Positions 1,529 through 62,053 of a stretch of DNA of 64,000 bases are shown piece after piece. The DNA comes from Antedon bifida (taxonomy: Eukaryota > Echinodermata > Crinoidea > Comatulida > Antedonidae). The stretch's first letter is position 1. The number at the start of each line of letters is the position of its first letter. A program made the translations under genes and the position numbers. Under the pieces are notes generated by a model. It did not search any database and was not told the DNA's origin. It worked only from the letters and a program-made list of their open reading frames with translations. The stretch lies in NCBI GenBank assembly GCA_963402885.1, contig OY727095.1, positions 4,531,001-4,595,000 on the forward strand, given 5' to 3'.

Positions 1529-1626
1529 GTACATGACTGAACAGCTGATAATAGTCTATTTATACGTGTGTTACGTAATTCATCAGTACGTCATAACTAT
1601 CATATTAACCTTGTAACAACCAAAAT

Positions 1627-31600: not shown

Positions 31601-34600
31601 AGAAATATTGGTACGGAGAAAATAATGTTGATTATGAATATTTATACTTAATATTGCAGCTCATTGTGAATATAGACGATGATGATGATACTCGTTCACC
31701 CGGTGATGTTGTTCAATTTACAATCATTGCGGAACCTCAGAGTCGAGTAGGATTGCTTGCTGTTGACGAAGCCGTCTACTTTCTCAAAGACTTCCATCGT
31801 TTGACGAAAAAGAAGGTTTGAAATAATGTGTTTAGACCAGCCATATTACTCATTAGTTTACATTTATTATTTATACCTGCGTGTTTATTCAGTACTGTAG
31901 AGCTCTACAAATTTCGCATGCCAATATAGCCTATTGTACACTATAGCAATCATTACACAAAATGTGTTTGCAAACTCTGAGTTTTCTACCGTTTGGAGAA
32001 GTTATTAAAAACTACTAACTTTTAATTGTGGTCATGTGATTCTACAGGAGCACAGTCACATGACTACAAAGGTATTTCATTCGCTGAGTTCACACACAAC
32101 AACCCTAGTTTGTCAAGAAGAGGCACCGCCTAAAAAACTAGTTGTCCATAGTTTGCAAAGTGTTAACTGGTCTACACTTTTTATCGTTAATATGATTCAA
32201 ATATCTAGCAAGTTTTTACTTCTCGGTAGCAGCAAAGTTTTCTTCAGATGTCAGGCCGTATGAACCAAAAGTAAAAATATAAGGTGTCAAATGAAGAGAT
32301 ATTAACAGTAGTAAACAAACTACTTTTCTAAATACTTTTTTGAAATCAATATTTCTACTGAAATGTATTCATATACTAGCATTTAAATAATATTATAATG
32401 GAAAGAGACTCCTCATTTAACATTTTTCTCAAGCGTTTCCAAGATTTTTTTTTTCTAATTGTTTTTTTTATTGTTTTGATATTGATTTTGTAGTTTTTTT
32501 TTCTCTATTCTTTTGAAACTTTTTAAATGAATTTAAAACAAAAATGTAATTAAAACTGTTGAAAAGTTTAAATTGATAATTTACTTTTAGTTTTTTTGTA
32601 AATCTCAGATGTTCCAAAGAATGGAGACTCTTGACCTTGGATGTGGACCAGGCGGCGGTGGAAGTAGCAAAGAAATATTTGAAAATGCCGGACTGATCGC
32701 ACTTACAAGTGCAAATTTCGGTAAAACTAGTGTTCGCCAAGGTATGTGAAATCAAATTCGAAATATTTTGTTTGACATGTATGTCCAATAAGACAAACCT
32801 GTATCTCTGCTTAAGGAGATCAGAAAGGCGCATTGAAACTGATAATTAGAAGCATTTATACTGGAGCAAAATGTTATTCAAATATATACTGGGCTGAAGA
32901 GCATAGCCCAAAAGATAGCTGATTGAAGGATACAGTATCTTATTCCGATGTTAGTCAATATTTTAGACTAAGCCAAAGCGGATGTAGGCCTAAAACATTA
33001 ACTAGATCGCCGCGAAGAAAAGCAAGCACTCATCATCTATCAAGGCAAAAATTCATCGCTTCCCGATACAAAAATTAAAGTATACTTGTACTTTACTTGT
33101 TTCTTAATTGGATGATCTAAGTTTGCTTCCTCTACAAGTTTGACCGGTTATTTACGTCACTAGGACGCTGCCTATTTTACCAAAAACTGTCTGTGTTTTA
33201 AAAAGACTAAAAACCGAATACATGAAATAATTGCTTACGTGAATGTTTTTATTTAGGGTATGAATGTCCAACAGAATCAGACAGGAGAAGAAAACGTGGA
33301 GTTTCAGGTTAGTGTAGTTTGTAGGTTCCTTTCACCATCACGTGATGATCATGATGATGATAATGATGATCTCATTTTCAACATGATATAATTTGAATAT
33401 TGATTATTCATTAGAAAATCAGAAATGTTACAAAGAGTTCGAACATGACGCTGATCTGTGCTCCGCTTGTGAAAGTGGTTTCCTCCACATCCCAGGAATA
33501 ACATGTGTAGATCGAATCAAGAAATTCGCAAAAAGAAAAAACATCGACCTTCCAGAGGATTATGGCAGTCCGCCAGATCATGACTTGTTGGGTGAAGTGG
33601 TTTCAGCTTTCCTTTTCTGTTGTGAAAAAAAGGAAGAGGAACGCAATGTGGTTGCCGGTAGAAATGCAAATGTAGATATTGACATAGATGAGGACGAATC
33701 AACTGTCAACGTCAGAAGTAATTTCCCAGAAACTTGGATTTTTGAGGAGTATGAAATTCCGTAAGTAGGCCTACTTTATAATATAATATTTGAAAAATGT
33801 ACAGTGGTCAAAATAAGTAATGTCAACCGGTCCTATATTGAATACCATAAACATACAAATATTGTTTTTGAACCTCCTGTATTATTTATTTATAATTTCT
33901 ATTCTGAATTCGTGGATCAGGTGCCTGATATTTCAATTCTAAACGCATTTTAAAATGAATAATTATCTTTTTTTAACATCTAGTGATAGTAGACAGATAG
34001 TCATTGACTTCTCCGTGCCTGACAGTATCACTAACTGGATTGTACAGGCTTCATCAGTGTCCGCTGCAATGGGAATGTGTGTAGCAGAAGAAAAGGAGAT
34101 AGAGGTTTCAAAAGATGTATTTATACAGCTGAAGATGCCGTATTCAATGGTCAGAGGCGAACAGACACAAATCCAAGCTACGCTTTTTAATTATGGAAGT
34201 AGAGAAGTCACCGTTAGTATTTAACAGTTTAGTTTATTGCACCTTATATATAGTCAATCTATTATATGATCTATTATAGAGTTAGGTCTACATCAATTAT
34301 CAACGTGGTGATTGTCATAACCGACGAGTTGTATTGCAGTATGTCATTTAAAATAAAATCATTACCCTTTTTATATTCGTTTATTCTTCGAAGGGAAACG
34401 TATATTTGTATGGTGTAGACGGCGTTTGTTCAGAAAGTCTCCCTGGAAAAAGGGGACCTAAGCACCAGTTGACTGTACCAAAGAATGATGCAAGGACAAC
34501 ATACTTTAATATTATCCCCTTTAACGTCGGTAATCCTCAAATTGAGGTCAAAGCATTCACTGATTCTGGAAATGACGGAATTAGAAAACAAATATTGGTT

Positions 34601-37600
34601 GTGGTAAGTTTGCTTTATTCAATGTATTGGTGTAGTAATAGTTAGAGTTTTTATGCCGTTCAATCAAGTTAAATTTATTAAAATGTGGCCTGTTACAATT
34701 GAATAACCTTCACGATAGTAACAATGAACGTCGAAACACATCGAAAGTGGACACCGTGTTGTACACTATTGTGCATTACGTCATCATTTATTTTTTAATC
34801 ATGCATAACGAACAGTAACTAGCGTCATCATCCGTCTGATTGGAGGCCATATCTTTTTCTTTTTTTTTAAATCTATTTTGCTGTGTTAAAATATGTAATG
34901 TGCATTTCTCTAACAAAATATTTTCTTTGAAAATGGATACACATTTTTTTTAAATATAATTGTATATTTAATATTTTCAACATAACAGCCTGAAGGAGTT
35001 GAAAGGTACCATTCTAAAGTATTGTTGATCGATCCTACTGGGTCACGTGCAAGTGAAGCTGAAGACGGAGAAGTTCAAGAGCCTGATCAACCGTTGGATA
35101 ACGAATTCCCATTTAAGCCAGAAAGTTAGTAGACCTTTTGGAATTCATTGTTTTCAAAACTATTTTTTGTTGTTGAAACATTTTAATAAAATTGTTGATC
35201 AGTTCTAATAAGGACAATGGTCCATTAGGTTGACACTTGATTAAAGTAACTTGACACCGATAATAATAAGTAATGAACATATTTGTTACAGCATTCACTG
35301 ACCATGAAAATAGTCTGCAGAGGGACACTTTTGATATAGCAATTGTTGACTTCAATGCAATTCCAGGAACAGAACAATGTTTCATCACGTTCTTTGGTAA
35401 GTTTAATAACATTGTTTTTCGAAACACCATGCACTCAGGAGTGAGAGTAAGTGAGAATGTGAGTGCTTTTACTTTTCTGAGGACGATTGAAAGATAACTC
35501 AAAACATCGAGAATCTCAAAAGTGTCTTTACAGAACTACATGCGTTATAATATCGCCATAAACTTTCAAACAACATACATTAACACATTTTACATAGATG
35601 CTACGGGGCGCCGGTTGGGACAACGTTATGTAAGGACTGTTATAATTAAAGATAGGAAGTATCCCTGAGTTTATTATGAATACATTTAAGAATATTTAAT
35701 GCCAGATTTCCCGGGTAAAACTCTTCTGTTTTAGTAATTAAATCTATTTTATATTACAGGTGATGTTATGGCTCCTTCTGTAAGTTCAATAATTGAAGGG
35801 TTAGACCCTGGTTCATTACTCGGTAAGCCAATGGGTTGCGGTGAACAGACCATGATGTTTATGTCTGCTAATGTTTACACAATGTTATACCTCGACAAAA
35901 CCGCTCAAATCACTGCAGAGGTTGAGGAAAGCGGCTTTAGCAAGGTTGACAAAAGTATGTATATTTTTTTAATTGAATATTTAAAATTGTGTATAATATA
36001 TTATCAATCATAATGCAAATGTATATTATTATTATTAATAATTAAATTATTACCTATAGTATAGGTACCTTACCTATACATATAGTCTATATGTATTCAT
36101 GAAAGATTCTATTCGGTCTTTGTAGCAATCTGGAACAGGATCCCAATTCTGGACCACTTGCTAAAAACAAGACAGATCTTATCCCGATTCTTGATCCATT
36201 TTCTTTTTTTAGGCCTACTCGTCAACATTCATTATATGTACTAGTCCACTCATTGTAATTACCCTGCACACCACTGCATGACTATTGTATTTTTTTCTAA
36301 AGTTTATCTGTCTTACAATAGGTTACCAGAGAATGATCAACTATCAGAGAACGGATGACGGGTCATTTTCAGCGTGGGGAGATCGCCGACCTGGCAGTAC
36401 TTGGTGCGTATATTTCAATCTTATTTCACGATATAGAAAAGGAATGACTTGTAAATAAATACGTTTCGTCAGAATTTTTTTAGTTTCCCATTAAGATATA
36501 ATCGTGAGGTGTTTCCCCGAATGATCGTACGATAAAAAACGGTACAGGGTTAGATCGCAACTAACGTTCATGCTCCCAACTGTAATAATCGATTCATATA
36601 AGTACTGATGGAGTAGTCAATCTGTGGCGACTATAGACTGGACCCGAGACCTAACTTTATTCGACTTTTAAATAATACAAAGTTTTGAATAGTTTGTTAG
36701 AATAGAAATGTACGATGTAGGCCTATGATATATAAGTTTATTTAAAATTGTTGACGTTTTAAAATTATTTTGTACATGATTTGCGATGAGAAAATAGTTA
36801 TTTGGTCGTTGGATACGTTCATTAAATATAATTAACAAATAAAAGTGGTTAGTATTAACTTTTAGTAAGAGTAAATATATAAGGAAGAAAAGCAAAGCAT
36901 GAAACGGCTGTTCCAGTAAACACCAGGTATATGTATATATGTATAAATGAAATAAATAAAAGTATATATAACACACCTGATTGTATTCTTGCAATTTCAT
37001 TGGTCAATTAAGCATCACCTGTTATTTGAATTTGCCGTAGTTTGTGGAAAATTGATAACTTGAATAACAAGGCCATATACATGGCTGCAGTCGCGTGCTC
37101 AAGTTAGTGTTTACCGACCAACCGACCGACTGACGTAGTGAGCTGTAGAGTAAATTAGGTGTGCTATAAACAAATAATTAATGCTTTGTATTCGCTGATT
37201 GGAGAGAATGTTTCATTCGTTGAAACATTGAATATACTCTATTTAACTCGGCTCCGCACTATAGCAGTTAATTTTTCAACTCCTGAAATATTCTCACCAC
37301 TCAACTCATAAAAATTAATTATTTGTATACTATTTATGAAACAGGGAAAACTACAGATAATTTGGAAATGTATTATTAATCGATTGTTTAGCTGCGCACT
37401 TAGCCTTGATATTATTGGCGTTTAGTTTTTGTAGAACTTTTTATGAATGAATACCATTCGTTATTGTTATGTTATGTTACCTTTACATAGTAAATCGAGG
37501 ATAGTAGAAAATACTGTACTGTTTAATATTCCTTTATAATATAATTATGGCAACATTCACACACTTTTAATAGGCTGACGGCTTACACGGTCAAAGTGTT

Positions 37601-40600
37601 CTACAATGTGATCGAACTAGGACGATTTGTTGACGACACTGTACTATGTAACGCGTATAATTTTTTTGAAACGCGATACATGAGTGTAACTGATGATCAG
37701 GGCAGATTCCGCGAAGGAAACACTGTGGTTCACAGAGATATGGCCGTAAGTATACAATTAATATAGGAGTGACTTTAATTTCTCTAACACTTTATTTATT
37801 TATTTCAGTTTAAAAAATCTAAAAAACAAAGCGGTAGCTGAGCTAAAATACTTGCATTGAAAAATAAGATAAGACAAGACAGCTAACAATACATACAAAA
37901 ATCGCAACGAACAAATCAGTAGTTAATATTTCAAAACATATGATATAGTATGCATTGATTATGCTGGTTTCTTAAATTAACAATATATTACATGAATTGA
38001 TTTTATTTATTATCTATTAATTAAGATTTGTATATATATATTTCCGATAACTGTGCAATAAAATACCAATAACTTCATATACATATTGATACTTGTATAT
38101 CTTAGGGTGGAATTAGTGGAGAGGTCATGATGACAGCATTTGTTGTTACGACTTTGGTAAAATACAATCCAGGAAACTTAGTACAGCCTGTCGTTTGTGA
38201 TGTGGTACGTATCAACATTATTTTACTGATTGTATAGAAAAACGATAATTAATTACCATGTTTTCGTCAAATCACCGAACTTAAGCAACGTTGGGTCTGG
38301 TTAGAGCTCGGATGGGAGACCATCTGGAGCTGGGATCCCATTTGAAATCAGCACTGCTGACTCTTATGGCAACCCCTTCATCTAGCTGCCCTCTGGTTTA
38401 ATGTGGGCTCTGGACGAAAGAAGCCATTGATCAATGATGGAACCAGCCAGAGGTGCTTTAAACAGTCCTGACTTAGTTTCAAGTTTCAGAGATGAATGCA
38501 AGACTAATTTAACATTTTCGTTCACGACCGAAGTCGGCCATAATGAAATAATATCCACGAATATTTATTAATAATATAATTAAATATTATTCATTATTTG
38601 CAGGACTATGATGACAAACTTACAAAAGCTATTGCGTTTCTCGAAGACAGTTTCAATACTTTAGAAACGGTTTACCATCGTACAGTCGTAGCATACGCAT
38701 TGAATGTTGTAGGTAGTAAATTTCAAGATGACGTATGGAACAAAGTGAAAGAAGAAGCATCGTTTGATCCAGTTAAGGGCCTACGTCACTTTACCATGAA
38801 CTCAAAAGCACTGACGGTCGAAGCAACAAGCTATGCGCTGTTGACTGCTGTCCACAGAAATGAGATTACGTATGCGAACGGTATGGTGAATTGGCTGACG
38901 GAACACAGAGATTTCAAACGCGGGTTCAGTTCAACCTCTGTTAGTATTTTATATTTATTTATTTATATCTTCTTTTTTTAGCTGTCTTAGCATTTCCTGT
39001 TTTTCTTTTAATTTGAAGAAAAACACAAATGTGGTATTCTTAAAGAAATACAACCTTCTAATATAATTTAAAAAACGTCAATCTTATTTAATGAAAGCGT
39101 ATAAAGCTCTTTCTACACTATCAAACAAGTTTAACAAAAAAAGTATGATCTGCCTAAATATAATAGTGATATAATGCTCAAATATGGTAGTGATATGACA
39201 TCATCATGTCCATATATGGGCACATCACATTTTTTTGTCATATAAAGTTTAATAGTGTAGACAGAGCTTAAGCCAAATTAATATGGCACTGCAAGAAATA
39301 CATAGGCCTACCATTTCATGAGATCCAATATTTCGATAATAATTTTGTCATTATTATTAGTACTTAGGCCTATAATTGAATTGAATCTTTAAATTATATT
39401 TCATTATTTATTTTATGCAATTAATAAGAACGATTTGTTTCAAATATAGGACACTGCTATTGCCTTCGAAGCTCTAGCAACATATTCAAGCGAAACCTCA
39501 ACTACGTCTGTTAATATGAGATGTGAATTGTCTTCTACATCAACCAACACTTACGAGGAGATTGTAGAAATCACCGACGCCACAGCTACCTTATCGCAGA
39601 GAAGAGAAGTGAGTTAAACACATTCAACATAATCGATTCGAATTAATTTACATTCATAAAAAGAACGAATTACAGTAAGTCTTTGAAATGGGATTAAAAG
39701 TTTTTTTGGTAAGATTCCGGTATAGTAATCATGTTGTAAATCATTTTGTTTTTAGTGTCCCACAGATGGCTTACTTGTTATAGAATGTTCAGGAGACGGC
39801 GTTGCACAGGCTGAGGTAATGTATCTTTTCGACAGGGTTTTGAAAGTGGTTCATAACTTCTGAAACTTGCAACAAGCATACTTTGTAAAGAGTGTCTGAA
39901 ATACACCACCACAAAACAAAAGGCATCCCGATATAAGTCAACTTTAATCGTGTGGACCTTAGTAAAAAAAGTAACTATTTAAATATTTGATTTCCTGCAT
40001 CAACATACATAAAACATTTAACCCTTAATAACGGCTTGCTATACAAATTATGGAGATCTGATTTGTTTTCGTTTGTTTTTTTAGGTTGAGGTTATTTACA
40101 ACACTCAAGCTGATACAGCAGGAGAAGAATGTGCCTTTTTTATTTTTGCACAAATGATAGAATTAGAAGCAGATCCAGGCTCCGAAAAACTATTGTATAG
40201 AATGGAAGTTACTGTTAAGTAAGTGTGTGTTTTTAAAGACAAATAGACTGTCATTGTTTGACAAAACAACAATTCAAATCAAACCAAGTATTAAATAACG
40301 TCATGATCAAAATTCATACGATGGAACGATCATAACTATTCTCATTAATGACGTCATTTTTTATTAACCTTGTGAAAATATTAATTCCCTCGAGGAGAGT
40401 ATGCATAATAATAGAAATAGAAAATACTTGCACTTGTTCTTTTTCAAATAAAAAAATAATTAATATCTATTATAGGTATCAATTAGAAGCTCGTGGACAA
40501 ACAGATATGGCGATTATTGAAGTTGGTTTGTTTACTGGCTTTACTCCAGTGCAAAGCACATTAGATAATGTAAGAATTTTCATCATATTTTGTTTGCATA

Positions 40601-43600
40601 TTGAAATTTTCGTTTATTATTGTAATTGTCTGTGTTATAGCATGCCGAAATGCACTAACACCCATTTCTAAATATTGTGGTAAATATTGTTTCTAATAGT
40701 GACCTGGGTGACCTCCGACCACCATTTTAATAACAATCAATTTAACAATCAACCCCAAGTTTGACTGGTATTCGATATTTATGATTCAAATTGTAAACCT
40801 TATGGGCTGGTTTAGAATATATATTGGGTTATTATATTACGTTTAGGTTACTAATGCTCTGTCTACATTATTTGTGACAAAAAAATGATGTGCCTATATA
40901 TGGACATGATGACGTTATATTACTACCATATTTGGGTACTTAACACTTTTTTTGTCAAACTAGTGTAGACAGAGCCTAAGAGATAACGTTGTAAATAGAG
41001 TAGTATGGGTTACTATTGTGTATATAATTCTTTTAAAGATATTTTCACACGAATATTTTTTTTAAGTGCTTACTTTTCCTTTATTTCAGTGTTTTTCATT
41101 ATTTTCCTGGCTATTTTTTTGAGTTGCATAATGCCATAAGACTTCGTTTCATCTATGATTTTTCTAAAGTAGGCTTTGCTTTGTTTGTTCGCATGATAAC
41201 GTCAAAAACAAGTTTATCGTCCTAAATTGAGTGTTAATAAGTATATATGCTTACAGAACATGCCTATTTAAAAATATATATATTGGTCACGTCACAAAGG
41301 CTTATTATTTTAAAATCTGACTTACCTGTAACTTCCATATGAGATATTTCATATTAAATCTATATTCCTTTAACATGGACCGAAATATCAAGAAGTAAGC
41401 CCTCTCTCTCCGAATATAGTTTTCCCTGATGTATTTTGTCACCTTCACTCAGTTTCTAAGTGCTTTCGTTTTAGCTTGTTGCTTCTGCTGAGTATCCTGT
41501 AGAACGCTATGAAACATCGGACAAAAAGGTTATATTCTATCTAGAATTTGTAAGTTTCCTTCTATTGTTATTATCTTATACAATACTTTTAAATGATGAT
41601 AGTCGAAAATCAACCAATTGTAAAACTTCCTTTTATGACGTAACGGTTATTGAACATACTTACATACAAGACCAGATATAGGTTATGTGTTTTTTTATTT
41701 AAATCTATTCAGACCCCAAATGCTCCCTTTTCATGTTCATCTAACAACCTAACCTTTTTACATAGAGGTGACAATTACTTACAGTTCATGTCAATTTTAA
41801 TTACTTTAGAATTAAACATTGTCTTTTTGTACAGATGCTCACAGAATTAACAACCTTACGATTTAATGTCGAGCAAACAGTAGCAATGGCTAATGTACAG
41901 TCAGCTAGCGTCACAGTTTATGATTACTATTTCCCAGGTAAGTTGATTTTCCACTAACACCACTAACGATCCTATCTCATAGTGTTTTTATTTATAAACA
42001 AATTCAAATGTTGACTACTAATACTTTTTATTTTAAAAAAAAATTATGTTTTCAACTTTTCCAGAGAAAAGATGCACTGCGTTTTATAACCCACATGACG
42101 ATCAAACTGAATTGAGACAAGCTTGTGAAGGTGATGTTTGTGTTTGTGCCGCAGGTAACTCTTTTTATTTAGTATTACTTCTCACTGTTCCAAATGATGT
42201 AACATACTCTTGTCTTTGTATATCCCTTACTTAACTATAATTACATATTGGACAATACTTTTTATGTTAACGTCATTCATCTATACATTTATTCATCAAT
42301 CAATCAATCACCCTTAACATAAATTGAATAATCTCGAAAATAAATAAACTATTGAAGGGCCACAAACTAGAAGGCGAAGCCTTGTCTCGTGAGTAAACCT
42401 AGCAACTCTCTTTGAGTATATTGTGAGAAATAATGTGTTATGTGCATTTAAAGTAATGATCTATTAAAACCTTGTAAAATAACAAAAAATGAAATAGTAA
42501 ATTAACAATTATAATAAATGTATGGATATGTGTGTGATTGTATGATGTACAGTCCATTACATGCGAACTTGTACAGTTCGTTTTATATTTATATTTATTT
42601 ATGCCTATCCTTTTACACATCTATAATTATGATTTTTATTTTTTTTAAACAATTAAAAAAAATTAAAATGATTAATAAATGAGTAAATGATTACAATTAT
42701 TGTACAATAATTGTATTATGCATTACGTGATATTATTGAATGAAATTGATTAAAGATGCATGCCACAAAACGAAAAACAAAATGACCGTATATATTTTTT
42801 TTTAAATGACCATCATATAATAAGTAATTGGTACGACTTGATAAGACATTTCAACTAGTGATTAAAGACCATTGACGACGGGTTGCTTATAGCAATTAAC
42901 CATGTTCTTATTAAGTGTTTGTTTTATGTTATGTTGTGATATTTAATATAATAATAATAATTTATTAGGAAATGACACCTTTGCATCGGTGGCACACACA
43001 GAAGTGGTGCATCCAAATTAACATAATACATCAAAACAATACATTATATGACGGATACAGGTTCTTAAACTATTTGCAAAAATATAAAAGAAAAATCATT
43101 ATCAACATGGTAATACAGGTACTAAATTGTCCTACAGTATCATATGTTTGTTATTAACATATTATTATCTCATTATATTATTGTAGGTCCTTGTCCAGAT
43201 TGTGCATTCGCTGTGGCAACACATTCTTATGAAGAGCTGTATAACGAGATAGCTTGTGGTCCACAAAGCGGAATCGATTATGGTAAAATTGGTTACGTTT
43301 CATGCATGAAAGAGGAAGTAGGAGAGGATGAGGAGTCAGTTAACCCCTGAAATTAAATTGATGATGTTACAAACACATCCAAACATTTTTCGGCAACTCG
43401 TTACTTTATAAATATCATTTTGACTGTTTCCAAAATCTTCCTAGCGCTCCTTTGTGTAATAGGCTCCACAACGAAACAATTAATGGCCTATTATAATAGA
43501 TAAGGTTTCAGTCCAATGTTGATTGGAGTCCCTTTTTCTCTCCAGTTTTCGAAGTTATTATGCAAGCTGTAGATGTGACCAATGGCTTCATAACCCTCAC

Positions 43601-45204
43601 AGCGACGGTTAACACAAGACTAAAAAAAGGTAGGCATATGTATGTGCATTATTATCCTAAAATTAATACATTTGCAAATTTACGAAGTAAAAGTGTACTC
43701 ATGTTTTCATCTAGACTTCCAAATTCATCTCTACGCATGCGTATAAGTTGACGCTTTCGATTCGCGTTCGCGCGAACAAATTTTCCTAGTGGAAAATCGG
43801 CTTATGGGTCATTTAACGTAATCCTCTTTAAAAAACAAAAACTAAGCTTAAAAAAGAACAAATTAAAATTCTAAATGTTTTTCTCTGCTCGTTGTAAATA
43901 CGAAAGTCTTGTCATTATAAATCTATTTACCCCATTTCATAAGTTTTTGTCGGCCTACCTTTTGTGAATGTATCGATTTCTTTGTAGGCAGAGATACATT
44001 TGAAGAGGTGGGAGATGACGAACCATCCCCTCGCTTTTTCATTATAAAGAGTTCGTGTCCCGGTTGTGAATTATTTGAAATTGGCCGTAAGTATCTGATA
44101 ATGGGCAAAGATGGTATTCCTTACAAAGATGTCAACGTTACAAAGTAAGTTTGTCTAGATTAAATTTTATTTGTAAGATAAAAAAAACATTCCTAATTCA
44201 ATCATAAAAGAAGTTCCATTACGTCGTGTCCACTAAACACCACGGTGCAGTGAATATGATAACACCAACCTAAGCAATACTGTAATGTAAATTGCCCTCT
44301 AGAGTAAAATAATGTCCACGCGCGTGGTAATATTATGTATCATAGTTTGTATTGGTGTTTTAAGAAACGCTAAGCTCGGACAAATCAAAAGATTTACCTC
44401 TAGTTTCGAAACGCTTGAATGATTTGCTTCCTCGACATCAGTGGGTACCAAAACGGTACCATCCCATGGGTACAGGCTGGGGATGTGCGCGGGGTATGGA
44501 TCCACGGTGCAGTAGGCGCGACTACAGTATAAGTCCAATTTCCGAAGACCTAGAAACTCTATTTTGCACAATTTTCTTAGCTCTACCCCGAATTCCGTAG
44601 ACTTATAATTTCGTTTTATATATCAATCAATGTATAAGTGCAATTTCCGAGCACCTAGAAGCTCAAAATGTTCTTAGCTCCACCCCAACCATGGTAGGGC
44701 TGGAGATTTCTATAGTGTGTTTCATAATTCGAAGTATATTCTAATTTCCGGGCACCTAGCAACTCTATTTTTTTTAAAATTAGCCCCACCCAAGCATGGT
44801 GTGCTGGTCCTGTACACTTATAATTTCGTTTCATTTATCAATGTATAAGTGCAAATTCCGGGCACCTAGCAGCTCTATTTTCCTTAGCTCAACCCCAACC
44901 ATGGTAGGGCTGGTCATGGTCATATATTTTGTTTCATATTCGTCGATACCTAACCGCAGATCAAAGCCTATTTGGCAAGTCGAGCTCAGTGTAGTGTCCT
45001 GTTGTTAGATTGTCTTGGTGTTAGGAGGATCGGTTGACATATTTTTTCCATTCTAGTATTTATTCAATCTATTTCAGATACAAATATTTGCTTGATAGAA
45101 CTTCCTATATCGAAAAATGGCCCAAGAAAGCAGAAAACAAATCGCGTGCTAAGGAGCTGAACAAGTTTAAAAATGCCATGAAGAACGAAGGATGCGCAGC
45201 CTAA
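22661..45204 (+). CDS. C3: Complement C3-like thioester protein, 36 exons, 1700 aa
   Basis: A complete alpha-2-macroglobulin/complement-family gene; the 36 exons sum to 5103 nt with consistent phase. Family members are secreted, cleaved into beta and alpha chains, and activated by proteolysis to bind targets through an internal thioester. Visible marks: signal peptide (1-19), QTDKPIYTP (130-138), DLGCGPGG (619 on), furin-like RRRKR (664-668), six-cysteine anaphylatoxin-like segment (676-741), possible convertase site after VVAGR (R754), thioester GCGEQ (Cys1040, Gln1043), catalytic-type histidine in VVHRDMAGG (His1159, 119 residues after the Cys as expected for C3) and a C345C/NTR domain (1517-1700). 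Anaphylatoxin plus C345C exclude plain alpha-2-macroglobulin or insect TEP. C3 rather than C4 or C5 is inferred from the intact thioester, the histidine and the single processing site. AATAAA signals cluster near 45790. Exon positions are in the four block entries. Confidence 0.95.
24557..24892 (+). repeat. Three tandem ACCGACCG-type repeat units
   Basis: Three head-to-tail copies of about 110 bp, each with AAGGCCATA(T/C)ACATGGC, GTCGCGTGCT, an ACCGACCGAC block, ATAGTGAGCTGTAGAG (ATAATGAGC in the third) and GCGTTGCACGCGAC, in intron 1 of the C3-like gene. Confidence 0.85.
26360..26770. mobile_element. Element family C (AAAGATGTATTGT ends)
   Basis: Starts AAAGATGTATTGTTCC and has inverted ends GGGGACAATACATCTTTAA at about 26628-26646, followed by a second partial copy to about 26775. 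The interior is AT-rich without a long frame. Other copies: 15936-16085 (partial), 30318-30664, 53524-53690 and 62369-62694. Confidence 0.7.
30318..30664. mobile_element. Element family C, complete copy
   Basis: Bounded by AAAGATGTATTGTCCCCC on the left and GGGGGACAATACATCTTTAA on the right, perfect inverted ends over about 18 bp. It lies in intron 11 of the C3-like gene. Confidence 0.85.
31345..31510. mobile_element. tRNA-related short repeat, second copy
   Basis: Contains the TTTTTTTTCGTACATAAG end, GTGAAAGATAGCCGAA and a GGGATTCAAACCCCATAC motif equivalent to the 18390 copy. It lies in intron 12 of the C3-like gene. Confidence 0.5.
33415..33760 (+). other. C3: C3-like exon 16: divergent anaphylatoxin domain and alpha-chain N-terminus
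   Basis: One exon encodes residues 672-787. Cysteines are at 676, 687, 690, 702, 740 and 741. Classical anaphylatoxins have CC-x12-C-x12-C-x6-CC. Here the first pair is Cys-Tyr, spacing is altered and about 30 extra residues separate Cys702 from the final CC. After the CC come acidic residues, VVAGR and an Asp/Glu-rich stretch leading to FPETWIFEEYEIP, which is the normal C3 alpha'-N-terminal motif. Confidence 0.85.
37070..37152 (+). repeat. ACCGACCG-type repeat, single copy
   Basis: One unit of the family at 24557, in intron 22 of the C3-like gene, truncated after GAGCTGTAGAG. Confidence 0.75.
38262..38470 (+). mobile_element. 5S rRNA-derived SINE-like element
   Basis: Bases 38268-38330 match the internal-control half of 5S rRNA: GAACTTAAGCAACGTTGGG, TCTGGTTAG, then CTCGGATGGGAGACC, which covers the A box, intermediate element and C box. 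The 5S 5' half is absent and a non-5S body follows (CAGCACTGCTGACTC through CCAGCCAGAGGTGCTTTAA). That architecture fits a 5S-headed SINE rather than a 5S gene. It lies in intron 24 of the C3-like gene. Confidence 0.75.
39103..39270. mobile_element. MITE, family A
   Basis: Full-length copy with ends AAGCTCTTTCTACACTATCA and TAGTGTAGACAGAGCTT, in intron 25 of the C3-like gene. Confidence 0.85.
40853..40978. mobile_element. MITE, family A
   Basis: Ends TGCTCTGTCTACATTA and AGTGTAGACAGAGCCTAA, in intron 29 of the C3-like gene; somewhat shortened. Confidence 0.8.
42065..45204 (+). other. C3: C3-like exons 32-36: C345C/NTR domain
   Basis: Exons: 42065-42154, 43187-43282, 43546-43629, 43988-44144, 45078-45204 (stop included). 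They begin EKRCTAFYNPHDD with CVCAAG, as in the C3 anchor/C345C start, and contain two CxxC pairs, CPDC (1549-1552) and CPGC (1630-1633), then KYLIMGKDG and a charged C-terminus ending GCAA. These five exons are the ones kept in both mini-C3 genes downstream. Confidence 0.92.
44480..44960 (+). repeat. Tandem array with CCATGGTAGGG cores
   Basis: About four units of 110-130 bp, each with ATAAGTGCAATTTCCG, CACCTAGCAGCTCTATTTT, TTAGCTCCACCCCAACCATG and GGGCTGG. It lies in intron 35 of the C3-like gene. The same family is recognisable in the 5' tandem unit at about 640-930. Confidence 0.75.
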
Positions 45205-47626: not shown

Positions 47627-47682
47627 CAACAGTTTTCTGTATTGAACTTACAATATTTATACGCAATAATAATAATAATAAA

Positions 47683-47896
47683 GCGTGGTTCCTACTAGAA
47701 AGCAAGCCAACGCAACGCAGCGACGTATCGACGCAAAGTGCTGTATTGCGTAATATAATCACAAGTGGGAACCGACGATGAAACAGCGCTGCAAACATCG
47801 CAGGTTTGATTTCTCGCAGGCGGGGGCAAACACAAATATTGGAAGGACATTTTCTTACGTTGCGTCGGTTGCGTCCAAATGGGAACCACGCTTTAG
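47683..47896. mobile_element. MITE, family B
   Basis: Ends AAAGCGTGGTTCCTACTAG and GGGAACCACGCTTTA. A nearly identical copy sits at the equivalent place in the second segment (56300-56518). The 64-codon minus frame inside both is a by-product of the element. Confidence 0.85.
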
Positions 47897-48009
47897 TATT
47901 ATAGTGCCGACGTCGTATGTCTAAGTTCTAGAGAAAAATATCAGGTTCGATTATTACGTATCACCTCGCCTTTTGGCATCAGAAGAGAGTGATCTCTCTA
48001 TATCCGGTG

Positions 48010-48264
48010 AACTATTATTGCTGCCAATTACAAACACACCTCAATTCCACATCCTCTATGAAAATTAAGTTAAGCTTAAGTTAGCTTAAGAAATATTTCT
48101 CATTTCAGTTCATGATCAAGTGAAGACGACAAGTAGATTGTCTAGATACAGTTAGATTAAGAAATTTTCTCATTTCAAATTGGTGCTCAAGAGAAGTGGA
48201 CAGTCGACTGTAACTTGTCTATACAGAATTGAATATTCAAAATAGACATTAATAGTTCTCAACT
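48010..48264 (+). promoter_or_regulatory. Promoter / 5' UTR of mini-C3 gene 1
   Basis: Shares AAACACACCTCAATT, ACATCCTC, CTCATTTCA and AGAAGTGGACAGTCGAC with the region upstream of the full C3-like gene. Relative to that gene a segment of about 75 bp containing TTCTCATTTCA and a GTCTAGATACAG/GTCTATACAG motif is present twice. TTTCTCATTTC resembles an interferon-response-type element with a 3-bp spacer, which is only suggestive. Confidence 0.55.
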
Positions 48265-51200
48265 ATGTTGAGATTTATTATTTTATTGACGGCGTTTTCT
48301 TTGCCGTATGCTTTATGTGGGTAAGTTATTTTACATTTTTCTGTAACATATTGTTATTGAAGGAGCAAACGGTAAATATTATTCAATATTATCTTATTAC
48401 TATACTTACAATAATTCATTTTCTAATTAATATTTCTATACTGTTGTGACTAATAGGTTAGATAAGCAAACTTTCGTTTCTTCAGTAATAGAACCACGTT
48501 CTTAACTTATAATTTTAAAAATTATTCCTGTGTCTGTTTTTTGGGGTTTTTTCCCCTGCGGAAGTGAATTTTAAACTTGATTAAAACTAAAAACTGGCCT
48601 ATTCAAACTCTCTGTTTTCATCTTTATTTTTCATGTTTTGAGGATATATTTTAAAGGTTCCATTAACTGGATGAAAAGGTTCTGTTTTACAAATACTGAA
48701 TGTTATGAGTTGGATGATGGAGAATATTTGATGAGTTGAAAGAATGACTACTATATTTAACGAGGCGGCAGTTTAGTTAATTATAGTAGTCTATCTTTCA
48801 ACGAATATAATATTCACCACCATCCAACGAAAACAAAGCATTTACTATTTGTTTTATAGAACAATTACTTTGAATTATTTCAACATACAAAACAACAGGC
48901 TATTCCTAGGCATAGCTAGGCAGGCCTGTGTAAAAAAGCAGATTAGCATTACGAAAAACAGACAACTGAAACTGATCTAGGCTGTTTTTTGCAACGATTC
49001 CACGTCTTGTATAATCAGTTAATCAAATCATACAAATGATGATCTAGGTAATTTAATTGCCCTTTTTTGTCTAATTCGCTCTACAAAAAATGTTTATTTT
49101 CGTACCAAAAAAAGCTAAAAAAACTATCACACAATCGTTTAATAGTATACGTCTATCAAACACCATGTGACCCATACTCGCGTGTTATAATTTACAATAC
49201 TACTATCGTTGAAATGCATACTAATTCCTATTATTTACCTTCAGCATATTATAAACTGCTAGGCATTGTCCCAGAATGTCAAACAGCATGTCCACATTTG
49301 TAATAATCATTTTCTGAATAATGACAAGCCAATACAGGGTCGTTCAGTTTTCCGTAAAACATTGTGCGAAGTAAACAAACAATACATTTTTTCAGTTCAA
49401 GTCATTATATAATCACTGCTCCAGGGGTATTCAGTGATAATGTTGAAGAAGATGTACTCGTATCGATCTTTGGATCAGATGTAAATGATGAACCCTTAAC
49501 TGTTCCAGTAACAATTACTCTTACTACCAGTGACGGCATTAAGGTTGCCAGTCAAACCGCTGACGTAACATCTGGTAAAATGCTTAGTTTTTAAATACAA
49601 CTTCTCCTCGTGTGTGTGCCAGTATATAAAAATAAATATTTTCAGTTCTTCATACCTCCCAAGGTTTATGAAACCAAAGCTCTATAATAATCCATCAAAT
49701 CATAGAGGGCACATCTACATTTGATTCACATTGATTAAAACAGTAACAATTGGTTTTTAATAATTATATTAGATATTATTATTATTTATATGGATTTTAT
49801 AAATGCACCTACTACCTACCTAATTATGTCAACAAACGACCAAATCGGCCTTTCGCGTCCAACAAAAATATCAAATTGTAAAAAAAAAACAGTTGATTGC
49901 AACCATTCAATAATACCTACATTTAATAGTACATCTACTTGTATTTCAAAATAACATTAGACTGATTGATTTAACCAGGTACACCAAAGGTGTTAACATT
50001 CATTGTGAATGTAGCTGATTTACCATCGGATGAGGAGTTTCCAAAGTTGACTTTACGTGCGTTTTCTGCCCACACTAGTCTGCCTTTTGACAAAAGTGAA
50101 GTTGTGTTAGTGGCAACTAAAGTTATTCTTACTCCTGATCAAGACGGTATGTGTCATTTTATTTGTTTACTAGTCCCACAGTCCTAGTGAATCCTATTTA
50201 CTGGCAATTGGTATATAATTGTGTTAACTAATCGCTGCTTCTGGCCTGGCTACATAATGTGTTATGTATTCGCTTGATATCATGGTTTTTGAATGCACCA
50301 CTCTACTATCATTATTTAAAGTAGGCCTACTGAATTTTGCTTTTTAGATTTTTTCTGTTTTGATTTTTTCTGTTATGTGTTAAAAATAAGAAACGAACTA
50401 CGCTCAAATATGCACAATTTGAGGTATTTTTACTAAAACTGTAATCAAACATTAAGGTAGAATGCCTACAGACAGTAGTATTTTGTAATTTTATATTTTA
50501 AAGATTACAAAGCTAACAACTGTTTAATGTTGAGGAAAAATTTGCGATGGCGTTAATATATCCATTCAGCTAGCGGAACAGTTTTTGATTACTATTTCTC
50601 AGTGAGTTAACAATACTTCCAAGACACAGCTAAACTCATTCACATCTAATAATGTTTGTATATTTAGTTCATAATATTTTCAAGTTCAATTATTAAATAC
50701 TAAGTTGTGATATGTGTTAATGATAATATTTTTATCCTTCCAAACAGAAAATTGCACTATTTTTTACAACCCGTATGACGACCAAATTGAGTTGTGGCCA
50801 GCGTGTGAGGATAATTGTGCCTGTGCTGCAGGTAACTACATTTTGTTGTACAGTTTAAAGGGTCTTTCACACCTGTTCCGGCACGATTCCGGTCCGGCGC
50901 CGGCAAATCCAATCGAACGTCAATGTTTCGTTTTTACGCGGCTACGCGCATATCGATTGGCGCATAGCCGCGTGGAGCGTCGTCAAAACGAAACATTGAT
51001 GTTCGATTCGCCGGACCGGAACCGTGCCGGAACAGGTGTGAAAGGCCCTTAACAAAAAGGATTGTACGAAACGGCTTCCTATAGTCAAATTAGTAGTTAT
51101 AATAAAGTTGAAAACACCGGATAAGAATTAACATCAAGATGTACAGTCAATGTTACACTCATCCCTATAGGCTTAGCCCGTGTTAAGTAAGTAATAATAG

Positions 51201-53219
51201 ATCAATCACAGCTGCAGCGTAAGTTTCACTTCTGTATAGGAATGTTATGACCATTGAGTCTCATTTTCAATGAACACTAGCAACCTACTACATAGCGTAC
51301 GGGCCTTCTATACTTTGAAGGGCAGAAGAATTTAACTTAAGCCACTAAAAGGCATCAAATTGCATATCTCTTTCAAGGTCAAGTTATCCACACAGTACTC
51401 AGTGTATTCCCGTCGTGCAATGTTGTCATGCCTGCTCTTTATTCTTTCTGGCACAGCATCTTAGGCCTACATTGTTTTAGAGAGTTGAACAATCCAGCGT
51501 GTCATCAATGTAATTTACTTCGTTCTTAATGCCTAGGTTTGCGCACCTTATATTAACTTATCTGTACCAGATTCCAAGTCACTTTTATAAAATAAAATGT
51601 TTGTCTGTTAGCCGACTACTTCAAAACAAAGGCACTTTGGTAAAAACTACTAGGCGGATGATCACGATTCTGGATCCGTTAGGCCATAGAGATATTATAT
51701 CACTATAACATCTCTATGGTTAGGCCTATTTTCCACTACTCGAAAATCGAAAGCGCATTATATCATATTCTAAATCCCTCTCTACGCTTGCGTCTAAGCT
51801 GACGCTTTCGATTCTCGCGAACAAATTTGCTTCATGGCCTCACTTTTTACACTGGCGGAGGCCAAAACTCTGTCATTGTTCTTGTTATTATTGTTTTTTT
51901 TTATCTCGTTATATTTCTAGGTCCTTGCCCAGACTGTGAAAGACCTGAGGCAGAATTTGCGTCTCAAAATGATCTTTATCACGAGTGGGCTTGTGGTCAA
52001 CAAAAAGGAATCGATTATGGTAACGTAAACAGTGATTATTTTGATTTATTCATGCAAAAGTATATGAGTGTTTAAGAAATGAAATTATGGGCGTAAGATT
52101 TCTTTTTATGATAAACCTTTTGCTCATTTGACTTGCTCATCCCAATAATGGTCCTATTGAGAAATAATCAATTGAAGTCCAGTGCATCTTCGCATATTTA
52201 CCTACCAAGTGTTCTGTTATAGCTAAATAACTCATTCTCTGTTATGTTATCACCAGTGTTTGAAGCTATTGCTCAGGCTGTAGATGAAAAAGACGGCTTC
52301 ATCACCCTCACAGCGACGGTATATAGATTGAAAACAGGTACAGGTTGAATTATAAATAACATTTGAAATATTGAGATGCAAATTCGGGGCTTCAGAATTT
52401 TTCCGAAACACTGTGATTGGTTTAACGTTATTTACAGACTAATCTGGAACATATACTCTCACAATATCTCTCATCTTTACTCGATTTTCTTAATTTTTCT
52501 CTGACGTCTTACCTTTTTTGTAGGCAGAGATCAATTTGAAGATGTGGCGGATAAAACATATGGTGCAATTCGCTTTTTTATCATAAACAGTTCGTGCGCA
52601 GGCTGTGAATTGTTTAAGCCTGGTCACAAGTATCTGATAATGGGCAAAGATGGTATTCCATACCAGGATGGCATATATACCAAGTAAGTTGTTTTTGTTA
52701 GATGCGGATGACCATTGCGATTGTCAAGAGTCATCTTTTTCTTTATGACCACGTTCTTTTATTTAGACCTGAGTTTAAAATATTTCACATCAATTATAGA
52801 ACCACAGAAACTGTCTGTATTCTTTATTATGTTTATATTATCATTTGTAATTGCTTATGTTGTAATACCTTTCTTGTTAAAATTACTTAAACAAATATGT
52901 GTAATAAGAGAAAAAATGTTCTTCCTTTATCATCCTTTATTCACGAATAAAAAATTGTACTTTGGAACTCAAACAAGCCAAGACACAATTAAAATGCAAG
53001 GAAATAATACACGAAGATACAAATACAGATAAAAAACGTTCCTCCATTACTACTCTAATTTTTTATTTATAAACGTATTTTACTTTTTCCAGATACAAGT
53101 ATTTGCTGGATAACACTTCCTATATCGAAAAATGGTCCAAGAAATCAGACAACAAATCACGTGCTAAACTTTTGAACACTTTTGAAAATACCATGATTGA
53201 TGAGGGCTGTCCTACCTAA
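48265..53219 (+). CDS. Mini-C3 gene 1: signal peptide + MG1 + C345C/NTR, 8 exons, 315 aa
   Basis: Exons: 48265-48320, 49402-49574, 49979-50146, 50748-50831, 51921-52019, 52257-52337, 52524-52683, 53093-53219. Phases agree (948 nt). Exons 1-3 correspond to C3-like exons 1-3 (MLRFIILLTAFSLPYALC signal; HYIITAPGVFSDNVEEDV; VLTFIVNVADLPSDEEF). Exons 4-8 correspond to C3-like exons 32-36 (ENCTIFYNPYDD; GPCPDCERPEAEF; SSCAGCELF; YLIMGKDGIPY; ends GCPT). Everything between is missing, including thioester, anaphylatoxin and processing site. Exon 3 also lacks FIQTDKPIY. The product should be a small secreted disulphide-rich protein. No full-length family member has this architecture to my knowledge. 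Exon 2 has an in-frame alternative acceptor 6 bp upstream. Function unknown; a decoy or regulator of C3 interactions is inference. Confidence 0.86.
50523..50602 (+). pseudogene. Relic of C3-like exon 31 in mini-C3 gene 1
   Basis: AATGTTGAGGAAAAATTTGC and CAGCTAGCGGAACAGTTTTT followed by GATTACTATTTCTCAG align with C3-like exon 31 at 41860-41937. It has an in-frame TAG, a frame shift and a lost donor (CAGTGAG for CAGGTAAG), so it is no longer an exon. It sits just before the exon equivalent to C3-like exon 32, where exon 31 should be. Confidence 0.85.
50865..51052. mobile_element. Long inverted-repeat MITE
   Basis: About 190 bp with long imperfect inverted arms: AAGGGTCTTTCACACCTGTT at the left and AACAGGTGTGAAAGGCCCTT at the right, continuing inward through GGCACGATTCCGGTCCGGC-type sequence to a GCGGCTACGCGCATATCGAT centre. 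It lies in intron 4 of mini-C3 gene 1 and is absent from gene 2, so it inserted after the duplication or was lost there. Confidence 0.88.
51680..51726. repeat. Short perfect hairpin
   Basis: TAGGCCATAGAGAT and ATCTCTATGGTTAGGCC are inverted arms around an AT-rich loop, in intron 4 of mini-C3 gene 1. Confidence 0.75.
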
Positions 53220-54003
53220 GAACTCCGCCAGTGAACAAGCAGCAAATGCCGAGTCTTTTCTTTGTATTCAACCGTGCCTTCTTAATACCATATTCCATAG
53301 AGAGAGCCATTTCCCTTATTCAATATTACTTTGTAGAACAGCATTATTGTGTTCCACATTCATTTCAATCAGTAATTTGATCCTTTTATAAAAATATGAA
53401 AATATGTTTCTAAAAAACAAATATTTCTTATTCAATTTCCAGTAGGCCTAAAATGGTGTATGTAATTCATAAGATTTATTCCCCGAGATTATGTATAATA
53501 CATTCTGAATAGGTTTCTCTTAAAGATGTATTGTCCCCCTGAAAAAATAATTTGTAACATTTTTTGGATTGAATATGCCATTTTAATGTCACATAATAGG
53601 TATCCACTTTGAACAAAAATTGATCGAAAAAAAATGTATACCTAAAAAAATGGCTTTTTGGCTGAATTTGACCATTTATTTTGTCATTTTATATGATCAT
53701 TTAGAGTATAGAACATTATAATAACATAGCATCATTATTTCATGATTAAATTCTTTTTAACATATAAATCCGATTTATTTAATATGAAATTAAATTTGCT
53801 TACACTGAAGAATTGATTTTATCTGACTTTGGTGTTTTGTTCTATGAAACCGTTATACGCTTTTACATTTACGACACGTGATGTAAATTTAAATTCAAGA
53901 AGCAACCAATCAGCCGTCGTTCGTTGTTGGTAGGATATAGCAAATATAATATGTGGCGTATCCTGGACTTTTAAACCATACAATTTGACAGATTTACGAT
54001 GTT

Positions 54004-54500
54004 TTACCTCTCTACGCAGCTTCTTCGAATATCCATGTGTTTCTGAGCGTGCGCATAATGACGTTTTGTAGCGTCGTGAGAATCGACTTTACCTTGGCTA
54101 GCCCAAACATTTGAGCCCTGCATATGATGATATATTATTACATACACAGCAAAGACATAGTTATTACTAAATGCATCAAACAATTTTGATTTGAAAACAC
54201 TTACTATTGAATTCCGGTGTTCGATTATTGAATGGTTGATTTGCATGGTATGCCGGTTACCTGTATTCATAGTCAAGAACAGCAACAAATCCGTCGTCAT
54301 CGGTGTAATGGCAGGACTTCGGTTGAAAGGTATGTTACTAGCAGATAGGCTCATACCAATTTAGCAAATTTTTACCCGGTTAGTATATTTCAACATTTCC
54401 GTACAAAATGTACGTTCGTCCGACTAACGACGAATTACCACGGGAGCCGTACAAAAACAAAATCCAAGGACTGAGCGATGCCGAACTGCCGGAATAAGGT
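54004..54500. other. Unassigned candidate exons in a duplicated block
   Basis: On the minus strand an open frame at 54216-54354 and an exon-like 54094-54118 (acceptor ATATGCAG, donor GGTAAAG) could splice in phase in more than one frame. One version reads DDDGFVAVLDYEY then AQMFGLAKVKS. On the plus strand 54408-54497 is a 29-codon frame (YVRPTNDELPREPYKNK, then a stop) after a fair acceptor at 54383. The block recurs at 63170-63665. I recognise no family and the strands conflict, so no gene is called. Confidence 0.3.
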
Positions 54501-59800: not shown

Positions 59801-62053
59801 GAAACGAAATACGCTTTACAATTTGCAATATTTTTACTAAAAACTGTAAATTGAACAAAACTGATGTTTTAACTCTAATGAAGTGAATGCCTAGTATTTT
59901 GTACTTTTATATTTAATGATTGCGGAGCTAACAACTCTTTAATTTACTGTTGAGGAAAAATTTGCGATGGCGCTAATATATCTATTCAGCTAGCGTAACA
60001 GTTTTTGATTACTATTTCCCACTGAGGTAACAAAACTTCCCATACACATTTAGTTAATAAGTTCACTGTTTAAATACTAAGTTGTGATATGTCTTAATAC
60101 ATTTTGTAATCTTTCAAAACAGAAAACTGCACTGCATTTTACAACCCCGACGATAAAAATGAGTTGTGGCCAGCGTGTGAGGGCGATGTTTGTATATGTG
60201 CTGCAGGTAATTTTTCGATTACGTCGTCAAAACCAGGGAAGAGTGAAATTCCACTTGGTAAAAACTACTAAGCGGATGATCTGGATCTGTTAGACCTATT
60301 TTCCGTTAGTCAAAACTCTTCCAAATCCTCTCTACGCATGCGTATAAGCGAACGCTTTCGATCGTTGTTGCGAACAAATTTGCTTTGTGGAAAATCGATT
60401 TCATGGCCTCACTTTTTACACTGGCGGAGGCAAAAACTCTGTCATTGTTCTTGGGATTATTTTATCTCGTTATATTTCTAGGTCCTTGTCCTGAGTGTGA
60501 AAGACCTGAGGCAGAATTTGCGTCTGAAAATGATCTTTATCACGAGTGGGCCTGTGGTCAACAAAAAGGAGTCGATTATGGTAACGTAAACAGTGATTAT
60601 TTTGATTTCTTCATGCAAAAGTATATGAGTGTTTAAGAAATGAAATTATGGGCGTAAGATTTTTTTTATGATAAACTTTTTTTTGCTCATTTTACTCGCT
60701 CACCCCAATAATGGTCCTATTGAGAAATAATTGATTCTCTGGTTTTGTACCCTCAGTAAGATTTTAATCAATTGCAGTCCAAGGTAATTGAAGGCCCATC
60801 CTTGCATATTTACATTACATAAGTGTTCTGTTATAGTTAAATAACTGGTTCTCTGTTATGTTATCACCAGTGTTTGAAGCTATTCCTCAGGCTGTAGATG
60901 AAAAAGACGGCTTCATCACCCTCACAGCGACGGTATATAGATTGAAAACAGGTACAGGTTGCATTATAAATACCATTTGAAATATTGAGATGCAAATTCG
61001 GGGCTTCAGAATTTTTCCGAAACACTGTGATTGGTTTAACGTTATTTACAGACTAACCTGGAACATATACTCTCACAATATCTCTCATCTTTACTCGATT
61101 TTCTTAATTTTTCTCTGACGTCTTACCTTTTTTGTAGGCAGAGATCAATTTGAAGATGTGGCGGATAAAACATATGGTGCAATTCGCTTTTTTATCATAA
61201 ACAGTTCGTGCGCAGGCTGTGAATTGTTTAAGCTTGGTCACAAGTATCTGATAATGGGCAAAGATGGTATTCCATACCAGGATGGTATCTATACCAAGTA
61301 AGTTGTTTTTGTTAGATGCGGATAACCATTGCGATTGTCAAGAGTCATCTTTTGTTTATTACCACGTTCTTATTTATTTCAACCTGAGTTTAAAATATTT
61401 AACATCCATATTATAGAACCAAAAAAACTGTCTGTATTCTTTATTATGTTTATATTATCACTTGTAATTGCCTTTTTTTGTTTAAATTACTTAAACAAAT
61501 GTTTAAAGGTTTTAAAGCTTTTAAATTTATATAGCGCAAAATACAAATAGTCTCTATGCGCTGGTTAGCACAATTGTGAAAATGAAAATGTTGAGGTAAA
61601 ATAAACCACAAAATAGCCTAATAAAACTGAATAAATTGACCAAGACAACAGAAAAAAGTTTGAAAACGGAATCTCACATCACCACACTGTTTCACTAACT
61701 TGTCAAGATGTGTGTAATAAGAGAAAAAGTGTTCTTTTGTTTTTCAATCATCCTTTATTCACGAATATAAAAATTGTAAAAAAGAAAGTTTACATTCCAT
61801 CCAGGTCAATGTCTGGAACTCAAAAAGGCAGAACACAACTAAAATTCAAGGAAATAATACACAAGATACAAATACAGATAAAAAACGTTCCTCCATTACT
61901 ACTAATATTTTATTTCAATATTCCAGATACAAATATTTGCTTGATAACACTTCATATATCGAAGAATGGTCCAAGAAAGCAGACAACAAATCACGTGCTA
62001 AGGAGTTGAACATTTTTAAAAATGACATGATTAATAATGGCTGTCCTACCTAA
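56878..62053 (+). CDS. Mini-C3 gene 2: signal peptide + MG1 + C345C/NTR, 8 exons, 312 aa
   Basis: Exons: 56878-56933, 58791-58957, 59372-59536, 60123-60206, 60482-60580, 60871-60951, 61138-61297, 61927-62053. Phases agree (939 nt). Same domain order as mini-C3 gene 1: signal MLKFIILLTVLSLPYALC, MG1 (HYIITAPEVFGYNVEEYV), C345C/NTR start ENCTAFYNPDDKNE, CPEC, SSCAGCELF, YLIMGKDGIPY, end GCPT. Exon 3 ends ATKSQVILTQ, so it has lost different codons from gene 1 while staying in frame. MG1 is the most diverged part and the C345C exons are nearly unchanged between the two genes. Exon 2 again has an alternative in-frame acceptor 6 bp upstream. Intron 1 is enlarged by ACAAACAAAC-rich repeat sequence (57700-58690). 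Function unknown. Confidence 0.86.
57690..58690. repeat. CAAACAAACAGA-rich repeat region
   Basis: Two related blocks in intron 1 of mini-C3 gene 2 share AGTACTTGGCAAAAT, TAAGTATATAC/TATATACCTATGTAC and CAAACAAACAAACA runs. A related stretch lies at about 9995-10310 in the CCHCR1-like gene, and an inverted piece at about 41395-41470 in the C3-like gene. Minus-strand frame 57803-58021 lies inside and is not supported as a gene. Confidence 0.65.
59944..60026 (+). pseudogene. Relic of C3-like exon 31 in mini-C3 gene 2
   Basis: Same relic as in mini-C3 gene 1 (TGTTGAGGAAAAATTTGCG; CAGCTAGCGTAACAGTTTTT; GATTACTATTTCCCA), with the donor destroyed (CCCACTGAGG). It lies about 95 bp before the exon equivalent to C3-like exon 32. 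Confidence 0.85.

Follow-up and report, generated by a model that had tools for sequence, protein, structure and literature searches.

In the crinoid Antedon bifida, the window analysed here, a 64,000-nucleotide stretch of the forward strand of contig OY727095.1 (assembly GCA_963402885.1, positions 4,531,001 to 4,595,000), carries two short genes, mini-C3 gene 1 (mini 1) and mini-C3 gene 2 (mini 2), which keep the two ends of complement C3: a presumed signal peptide, the macroglobulin domain MG1, an anchor segment, and the C-terminal C345C domain, which has the NTR fold (Table 1). Judged from their sequences, both are well-formed coding genes that are probably functional, and a plausible mechanism can be proposed for them. 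With a probability of a little under two in five (about 0.38), mini-C3 is a free C345C domain encoded by a gene of its own, which would damp C3 activation by competing for the partners of C345C. The MG1-C345C layout was found nowhere else in the searches made; free C345C has a human precedent in the fragment C3-LHF1 (PMC12706077).

Joined together, the eight exons of mini 1 comprise 954 nucleotides, or 317 amino acids and a stop codon, with GT-AG borders at seven of seven introns and no internal stop. The initial annotation had described eight in-phase exons with such borders and an open frame, which the spliced model confirms; its layout of signal peptide, MG1, and C345C/NTR also stands, although the length is 317 rather than about 315 amino acids. 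A second AG lies six bases inside exon 2, and its use would give two residues fewer. Mini 1 is an intact MG1-C345C frame and probably a real gene. In the spliced protein, the NTR domain is recognized by Pfam (E 1e-11, 45 bits against a cut-off of 21.9), and the solved structures (PDB) matching the C-terminal part are the C345C regions of C4, C5, cobra venom factor, and C3. MG1 scores below the Pfam cut-off (E 0.01, 16.5 bits against 23.6), thus its identity rests on DNA likeness to the neighbouring gene C3-1, which is 88% over 49396-49598 (exon 2) and 81% over a stretch holding exon 3. The C3 protein P0002 of A. mediterranea carries a precomputed MG1 domain (PF17790). The tail of exon 3, which in C3 carries VFIQTDKPIY, presumably the start of MG2, is trimmed in frame in mini 1, with an exact cut unlike that in mini 2. 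Upstream, mini 1 is 83% (47983-48110) and 89% (48150-48342) identical to the downstream gene C3-2.

The remaining C3 exons were sought by tblastn of P0002 (E up to 1) over 45300-64000, a search that an exon of few residues could escape. This returned the eight exons of each mini gene and no other C3 match except for a relic in mini 2; the relic in mini 1 was matched with P0005, another C3-like protein of A. mediterranea (tblastn E 0.87). Neither the thioester domain nor its GCGEQ motif, which is present in C3-1, found a match in this interval, and the macroglobulin ring MG1-MG6 is represented in the minis by the MG1 exons alone. Likewise, no match to the CUB or MG2-MG7 exons, or to an anaphylatoxin region with its cleavage site, was obtained in either mini gene, and the Pfam anaphylatoxin domain PF01821 is also unlisted for P0002 and for P0003 of A. 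mediterranea. Since only eight exons and the relic were found, the exons for the thioester, CUB, and MG2-MG7 parts are missing, bearing out the initial claim that a protein without the thioester, anaphylatoxin, and convertase regions cannot work as C3. Compared with complement C3 (C3-1, C3-2, and P0002), the minis share the signal peptide, MG1, anchor, and C345C exons, their phases, and a related upstream region, but are without MG2-MG8, the linker, and the anaphylatoxin-like, CUB, and thioester parts.

The relics point to how this layout arose. In intron 3 of both minis lies a stretch that is 79-80% like exon 28 of C3-1, the last MG8 exon. Relative to C3-1 and C3-2, both relics contain a common 4-nucleotide insertion that shifts the frame, and each has damage of its own, a further loss of 5 nucleotides in mini 1 and an in-frame stop in mini 2. 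The acceptor AG of the relic is lost at the aligned place in both, with another AG nearby in mini 1. A broken exon 28 in intron 3 of both genes implies that a C3 copy lost a stretch beginning in intron 3 and stopping just short of exon 28. As exons 4 and 29 of C3-1 both start in phase 1, the frame joined by such a deletion fits. The minis thus arose via internal deletion in a duplicated C3, after which exon 28 died and exons 1-3 and 29-33 were retained. Because the 4-nucleotide insertion is shared, the death of exon 28 would precede the split between mini 1 and mini 2, unless gene conversion spread it. The initial annotation had placed the minis beside their full-length parent. C3-1 is indeed a close relative, since the minis group with it in the MG1 tree (support 83/89), but their placement in the C345C tree is open, and with the two trees in disagreement C3-1 was rejected as a proven parent. 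A longer C3-type transcript running through the mini exons was also rejected, given that the sole C3 match between exons 3 and 4 is the out-of-frame relic and that a separate start exon and a C3-like upstream region belong to each mini gene.

Neither copy bears the marks of a pseudogene, with stops, frameshifts, and broken splice sites absent from eight of eight coding exons in each. Since both frames are intact, and the relic broke while the coding exons stayed open, the minis are probably real genes. Aligned with each other, the two minis differ at 259 of 2518 columns in introns and at 72 of 936 in exons. All six exon indels are multiples of three, against 20 of 89 in introns, where low gap penalties lead to overcounting. 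When neutral change was simulated from the intron distance (20000 runs), both copies were stop-free in 1.2% of runs and free of both stops and frameshifts in none, the simulated indel rate and the 26 frameshifts expected being upper estimates. The ratio of nonsynonymous to synonymous substitution rates (dN/dS, or omega), a comparison proposed in the initial annotation, was obtained pairwise and with a branch codon model, the latter a custom script that assumes a tree of four genes and gives p values uncorrected for the several tests made. Pairwise omega between the minis is 0.65 over the whole length (bootstrap 0.37-1.10), 0.39 for the anchor and C345C (0.20-0.74), and 1.26 for the signal peptide and MG1 (0.59-3.97). 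On the mini branches, C345C gives an omega of 0.39 with the stem included (p 0.0004 against 1) and 0.41 for the tips only (p 0.015), the whole protein gives 0.58 with the stem (p 0.009), and MG1 is about 1. When the stem is included, omega on the C3 branches is 0.17 for C345C and 0.32 for MG1, so that the minis are less constrained in both (p 0.02 and 0.01). Constraint in the minis therefore appears to lie in the C345C half, with MG1 unconstrained, which suggests a free C345C preceded by MG1 as a leader, and not a machine with two working domains.

The C345C half also keeps its cysteines. Past the signal peptide, mini 1 has ten, which were matched through alignments with C3-1 and C4, part of them made with the end of the C3-1 model three bases too long, and through the disulfides of human C3. 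On this basis, the pairs 154-158, 165-247, and 187-315 are placed as in C3. Cys168 and Cys250, which are matched in C3-1 and C3-2, may form a pair. Cys137 and Cys160 are retained in both minis, as are the C345C cysteines; in human C3 the equivalents of Cys137 and Cys160 pair with cysteines of MG8 and the alpha-prime N-terminal region. As these partners would lie in the deleted part while both cysteines were kept, Cys137 and Cys160 may pair mutually or with another chain. The C345C alignment ends in eight of eight rows with a Cys and two further residues (CPT in the minis; CAA, CSV, and CVV in the others). The carboxylate at the C-terminus of human C3b serves to complete the Mg site of Bb (PMC6713926).

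On this account, a duplicated C3 lost its middle to leave a short gene for signal peptide, MG1, anchor, and C345C, which then duplicated in tandem to form mini 1 and mini 2. If expressed and folded, the product would be secreted as a free C345C that retains the tail of C3 at its C-terminus, encoded by a separate gene whose upstream region is C3-like. By occupying proteins that would otherwise bind the C345C of C3 or C3b, it would damp or tune the activation of C3 in the neighbourhood of the cluster's long C3s. Going by the effect in the human lectin and classical pathways, candidate partners are the initiating proteases or the convertase step, and, with the C-terminal tail retained, the metal site of factor B would be possible too. 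Competition for C345C partners would be the simplest use of mini-C3. Cobra venom factor is a C3 gene duplicate with a new role that likewise retains C345C, but a much larger part of C3 remains in it, and it forms a convertase. Factor H-related proteins are short duplicates beside a parent gene with which they compete, though they belong to another family built of CCP repeats. The one tested precedent found for a free C345C is human C3-LHF1 (C3 residues 1514-1663), whose N-terminus is abundant in plasma and whose recombinant form suppresses the mannose-binding lectin (MBL) pathway with a half-maximal inhibitory concentration (IC50) of 5.4 uM and the classical pathway with one of 21 uM (PMC12706077). 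The authors of that study suggest that it interferes with MASP function or with the C4b2a convertase (PMC12706077). C3-LHF1 and mini-C3 share a free C345C with the C3 C-terminus. They differ in that C3-LHF1 is postulated to be a proteolytic fragment of C3 and has no MG1, whereas mini-C3 is a separate gene. Somewhat less probable than competition for C345C partners as such is that the crinoid encodes, beside C3, dedicated genes for secreted C345C decoys that regulate C3 activation, as a gene-level counterpart of C3-LHF1.

Several points weigh against competition for C345C partners. Omega for MG1 on the mini branches (0.98 or 1.28 in the codon model) does not differ from 1, that of the whole protein on the mini tips only (0.69) is not below 1 (p 0.17), the bootstrap of the pairwise whole-length value reaches 1.10, and even in C345C the mini tips are no different from other branches (p 0.13, codon model). 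As the classical pathway belongs to vertebrates, what holds for the human fragment need not apply to a crinoid. The protein searches found no mini protein of A. mediterranea, though three C3-like proteins of this species are in the database. In addition, C3-LHF1 requires micromolar amounts for its effects and does not inhibit the alternative pathway (PMC12706077). The latter weakens a plain factor B decoy, speaks against factor B as the main target, and weakens the factor B route within the initial suggestion of a regulator of convertase assembly; a decoy or a regulator, as the initial annotation put it, is conjectural.

The evidence also bears on other explanations. It is rather unlikely that a free C345C is made and is useful by itself, whether as a ligand of cytokine type or by inhibiting an enzyme, without competition with C3; we know of no crinoid receptor or enzyme that it might target, although no search for one was made, and the constraint on C345C but not on MG1 fits this account. 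C3-LHF1 is also reported to act on gp130 as a partial agonist and to change how MASP-1 and MASP-3 digests turn out, which would agree with it as well (PMC12706077). A lower probability is given to both minis being unexpressed or early pseudogenes that are still open by chance. Such decay would explain why MG1 omega is about 1, why the whole-protein value on the mini tips is not significantly below 1, and why protein searches returned no counterpart among A. mediterranea proteins. However, two copies with eight of eight exons open and GT-AG borders, a simulation in which 1.2% of runs left both stop-free and 0 of 20000 left them fully intact, and a C345C omega below 1 in the same genes where the relic exon decayed all speak against chance.

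Less probable again is a covalent partner or dimer, with Cys137 and Cys160 linking two minis or tying mini-C3 to another protein. Both cysteines are kept in both copies, and the partners of their human equivalents belong to MG8 and the alpha-prime N-terminal region, parts absent from the minis, but the two may simply pair with each other. An assembly artefact, either false duplication or misjoined haplotypes, could produce tandem near-copies; it is highly improbable here, as mini 1 and mini 2 are about 10% different in aligned introns and C3-1, C3-2, and C3-3 are distinct genes.

A first protein search used mini 1 as query (935 candidates, E up to 0.001), and a second used a profile built from both minis and from MG1-C345C segments joined for four further C3s (2805 candidates, E up to 0.00001); both rely on shared five-residue words, and remote cases could escape. 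Neither found another short MG1-C345C protein. The sole return, P0001 of Anneissia japonica (326 amino acids), is likewise a short C3-like model with C345C, but it consists of MG8 and C345C without MG1 and was rejected as another mini-C3; P0001 and P0004 of Anneissia, both on a contig of 676864 bases, look like one C3 gene split by annotation. No MG1-C345C protein was found among the entries listed by searches of open-licence literature, and a search of PMC8960428 for the words crinoid, truncated, Antedon, and Anneissia gave no occurrence. These results, including the search for an MG1-plus-NTR architecture that the initial annotation had suggested, agree with its statement that it knew of no described complement protein of this layout. 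In the C345C tree, the mini stem is 0.32 and the tips are 0.055-0.063, against a distance of 0.016 between C3-2 and P0002, and in the MG1 tree the stem is 0.11 and the tips are 0.14-0.21, against 0.074. From these long branches, the minis would be older than the split between C3-2 and P0002 and in A. mediterranea were probably lost or left unannotated, a loose dating by protein distance since the minis evolve faster.

Within the genome (315,563,634 bases in 27 contigs), a search with mini 1 gave 36 matches, counting the best candidates scored, all at 4556038-4640578 of the contig carrying the window (C8). An exon-by-exon Pfam NTR scan gave five matches, none in the C3 cluster, to which the scan is blind because the domain is split over exons. 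The cluster runs C3-1, mini 1, mini 2, C3-2 (C8 4600049-4618733), and C3-3 (to about 4640581), so that both minis sit between long C3 genes. The model of C3-1 omits three short exons that lie around 27094, 33256, and 35309, and for C3-2 only the MG1 and C345C exons were modelled. C3-1 matches P0002 at 85%, using a query with the last exon three bases too long and the three short exons omitted. In the two genes downstream of the minis, 24 of 34 tblastn pieces are at least 90% identical to P0002 and 21 of 32 are at least 90% identical to P0003.

Other features of the window and cluster were observed. The stretch holding exons 6-7 (52185-52863 against 60797-61481) is 95% identical between the minis, as is the 3' flank at 53687-54549, compared with 79-92% in the rest of the gene, and there may have been gene conversion. 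Intron 4 of mini 1 contains, at 50857-51050, an inverted-repeat element with arms read by eye, similar to a miniature inverted-repeat transposable element; mini 2, whose intron 4 is much shorter, lacks it. A repeated element upstream of mini 1 (47225-47410 and 47680-47900) recurs ahead of mini 2 and within both C3-2 and C3-3, with one match reversed (47000-47054 to 56472-56418). In C3-3, pieces at C8 4630273-4636173 (about residues 863-1425 of P0003) are 46-89% identical to P0003, low values that partly come from pieces running into introns, and the flanking pieces are mostly 94-100%; there may have been replacement or fast change around the thioester domain. P0005 (1099 amino acids) has no close counterpart here (best exon match 88%), and C3-1 has none among the A. 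mediterranea proteins listed, a mismatch that suggests turnover in the C3 cluster. Within window positions 1-4650 are three copies of long direct repeats, at spacings of about 1861 and 2108 bases, with many parts 94-100% identical. An open frame at 14867-15127 matches the Pfam HCR coiled-coil family over the cut-off (E 3.2e-7) and is probably part of an upstream coiled-coil gene.

Table 1. Positions in the window of the mini-C3 genes, their parts, and the neighbouring C3-1 gene.
Feature	Position	Strand	Basis or remark
C3-1, 33-exon model, no internal stop, thioester GCGEQ	22661..45204	+	last exon 45078-45204
Mini 1, upstream region and 5' leader, C3-2-like; presumed inherited C3 promoter	47983..48264	+	DNA alignment
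Mini 1, coding span, 8 exons, 317 amino acids	48265..53219	+	spliced model
Mini 1, exon 1, presumed signal peptide (MLRFIILLTAFSLPYALCG)	48265..48320	+	spliced model; resembles exon 1 of C3-1 and C3-2
Mini 1, exon 2, first part of MG1	49396..49574	+	spliced model; C3-1 DNA likeness
Mini 1, exon 3, second part of MG1	49979..50146	+	spliced model, alignments
Mini 1, intron 3, relic of C3 exon 28 (last MG8 exon)	50523..50608	+	DNA alignment
Mini 1, exon 4, anchor preceding C345C; Cys137, 154, 158, 160	50748..50831	+	spliced model
Mini 1, exon 5, C345C	51921..52019	+	spliced model, tblastn
Mini 1, exon 6, C345C	52257..52337	+	spliced model, tblastn
Mini 1, exon 7, C345C	52524..52683	+	spliced model, tblastn
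Mini 1, exon 8, C345C end, C-terminus GCPT, stop	53093..53219	+	spliced model, alignment
Mini 1, candidate poly(A) signals at 53745 and 53789	53745..53794	+	pattern match alone
Mini 2, 8 exons, 314 amino acids	56878..62053	+	spliced model
Mini 2, exons 1-4	56878-56933, 58785-58957, 59372-59536, 60123-60206	+	spliced model
Mini 2, intron 3, relic of C3 exon 28	59929..60021	+	DNA alignment, tblastn
Mini 2, exons 5-8	60482-60580, 60871-60951, 61138-61297, 61927-62053	+	spliced model

If made, mini-C3 would be an isolated C345C that occurs naturally in an invertebrate deuterostome and descends from a C3 gene, and a ready minimal protein for learning how free C345C acts. If the reading of mini-C3 as a competitor for C345C partners is true, the end piece of C3 would have a use of its own that selection has kept as a gene, in line with C3-LHF1, and the crinoid would possess a complement regulator built from C3 itself.

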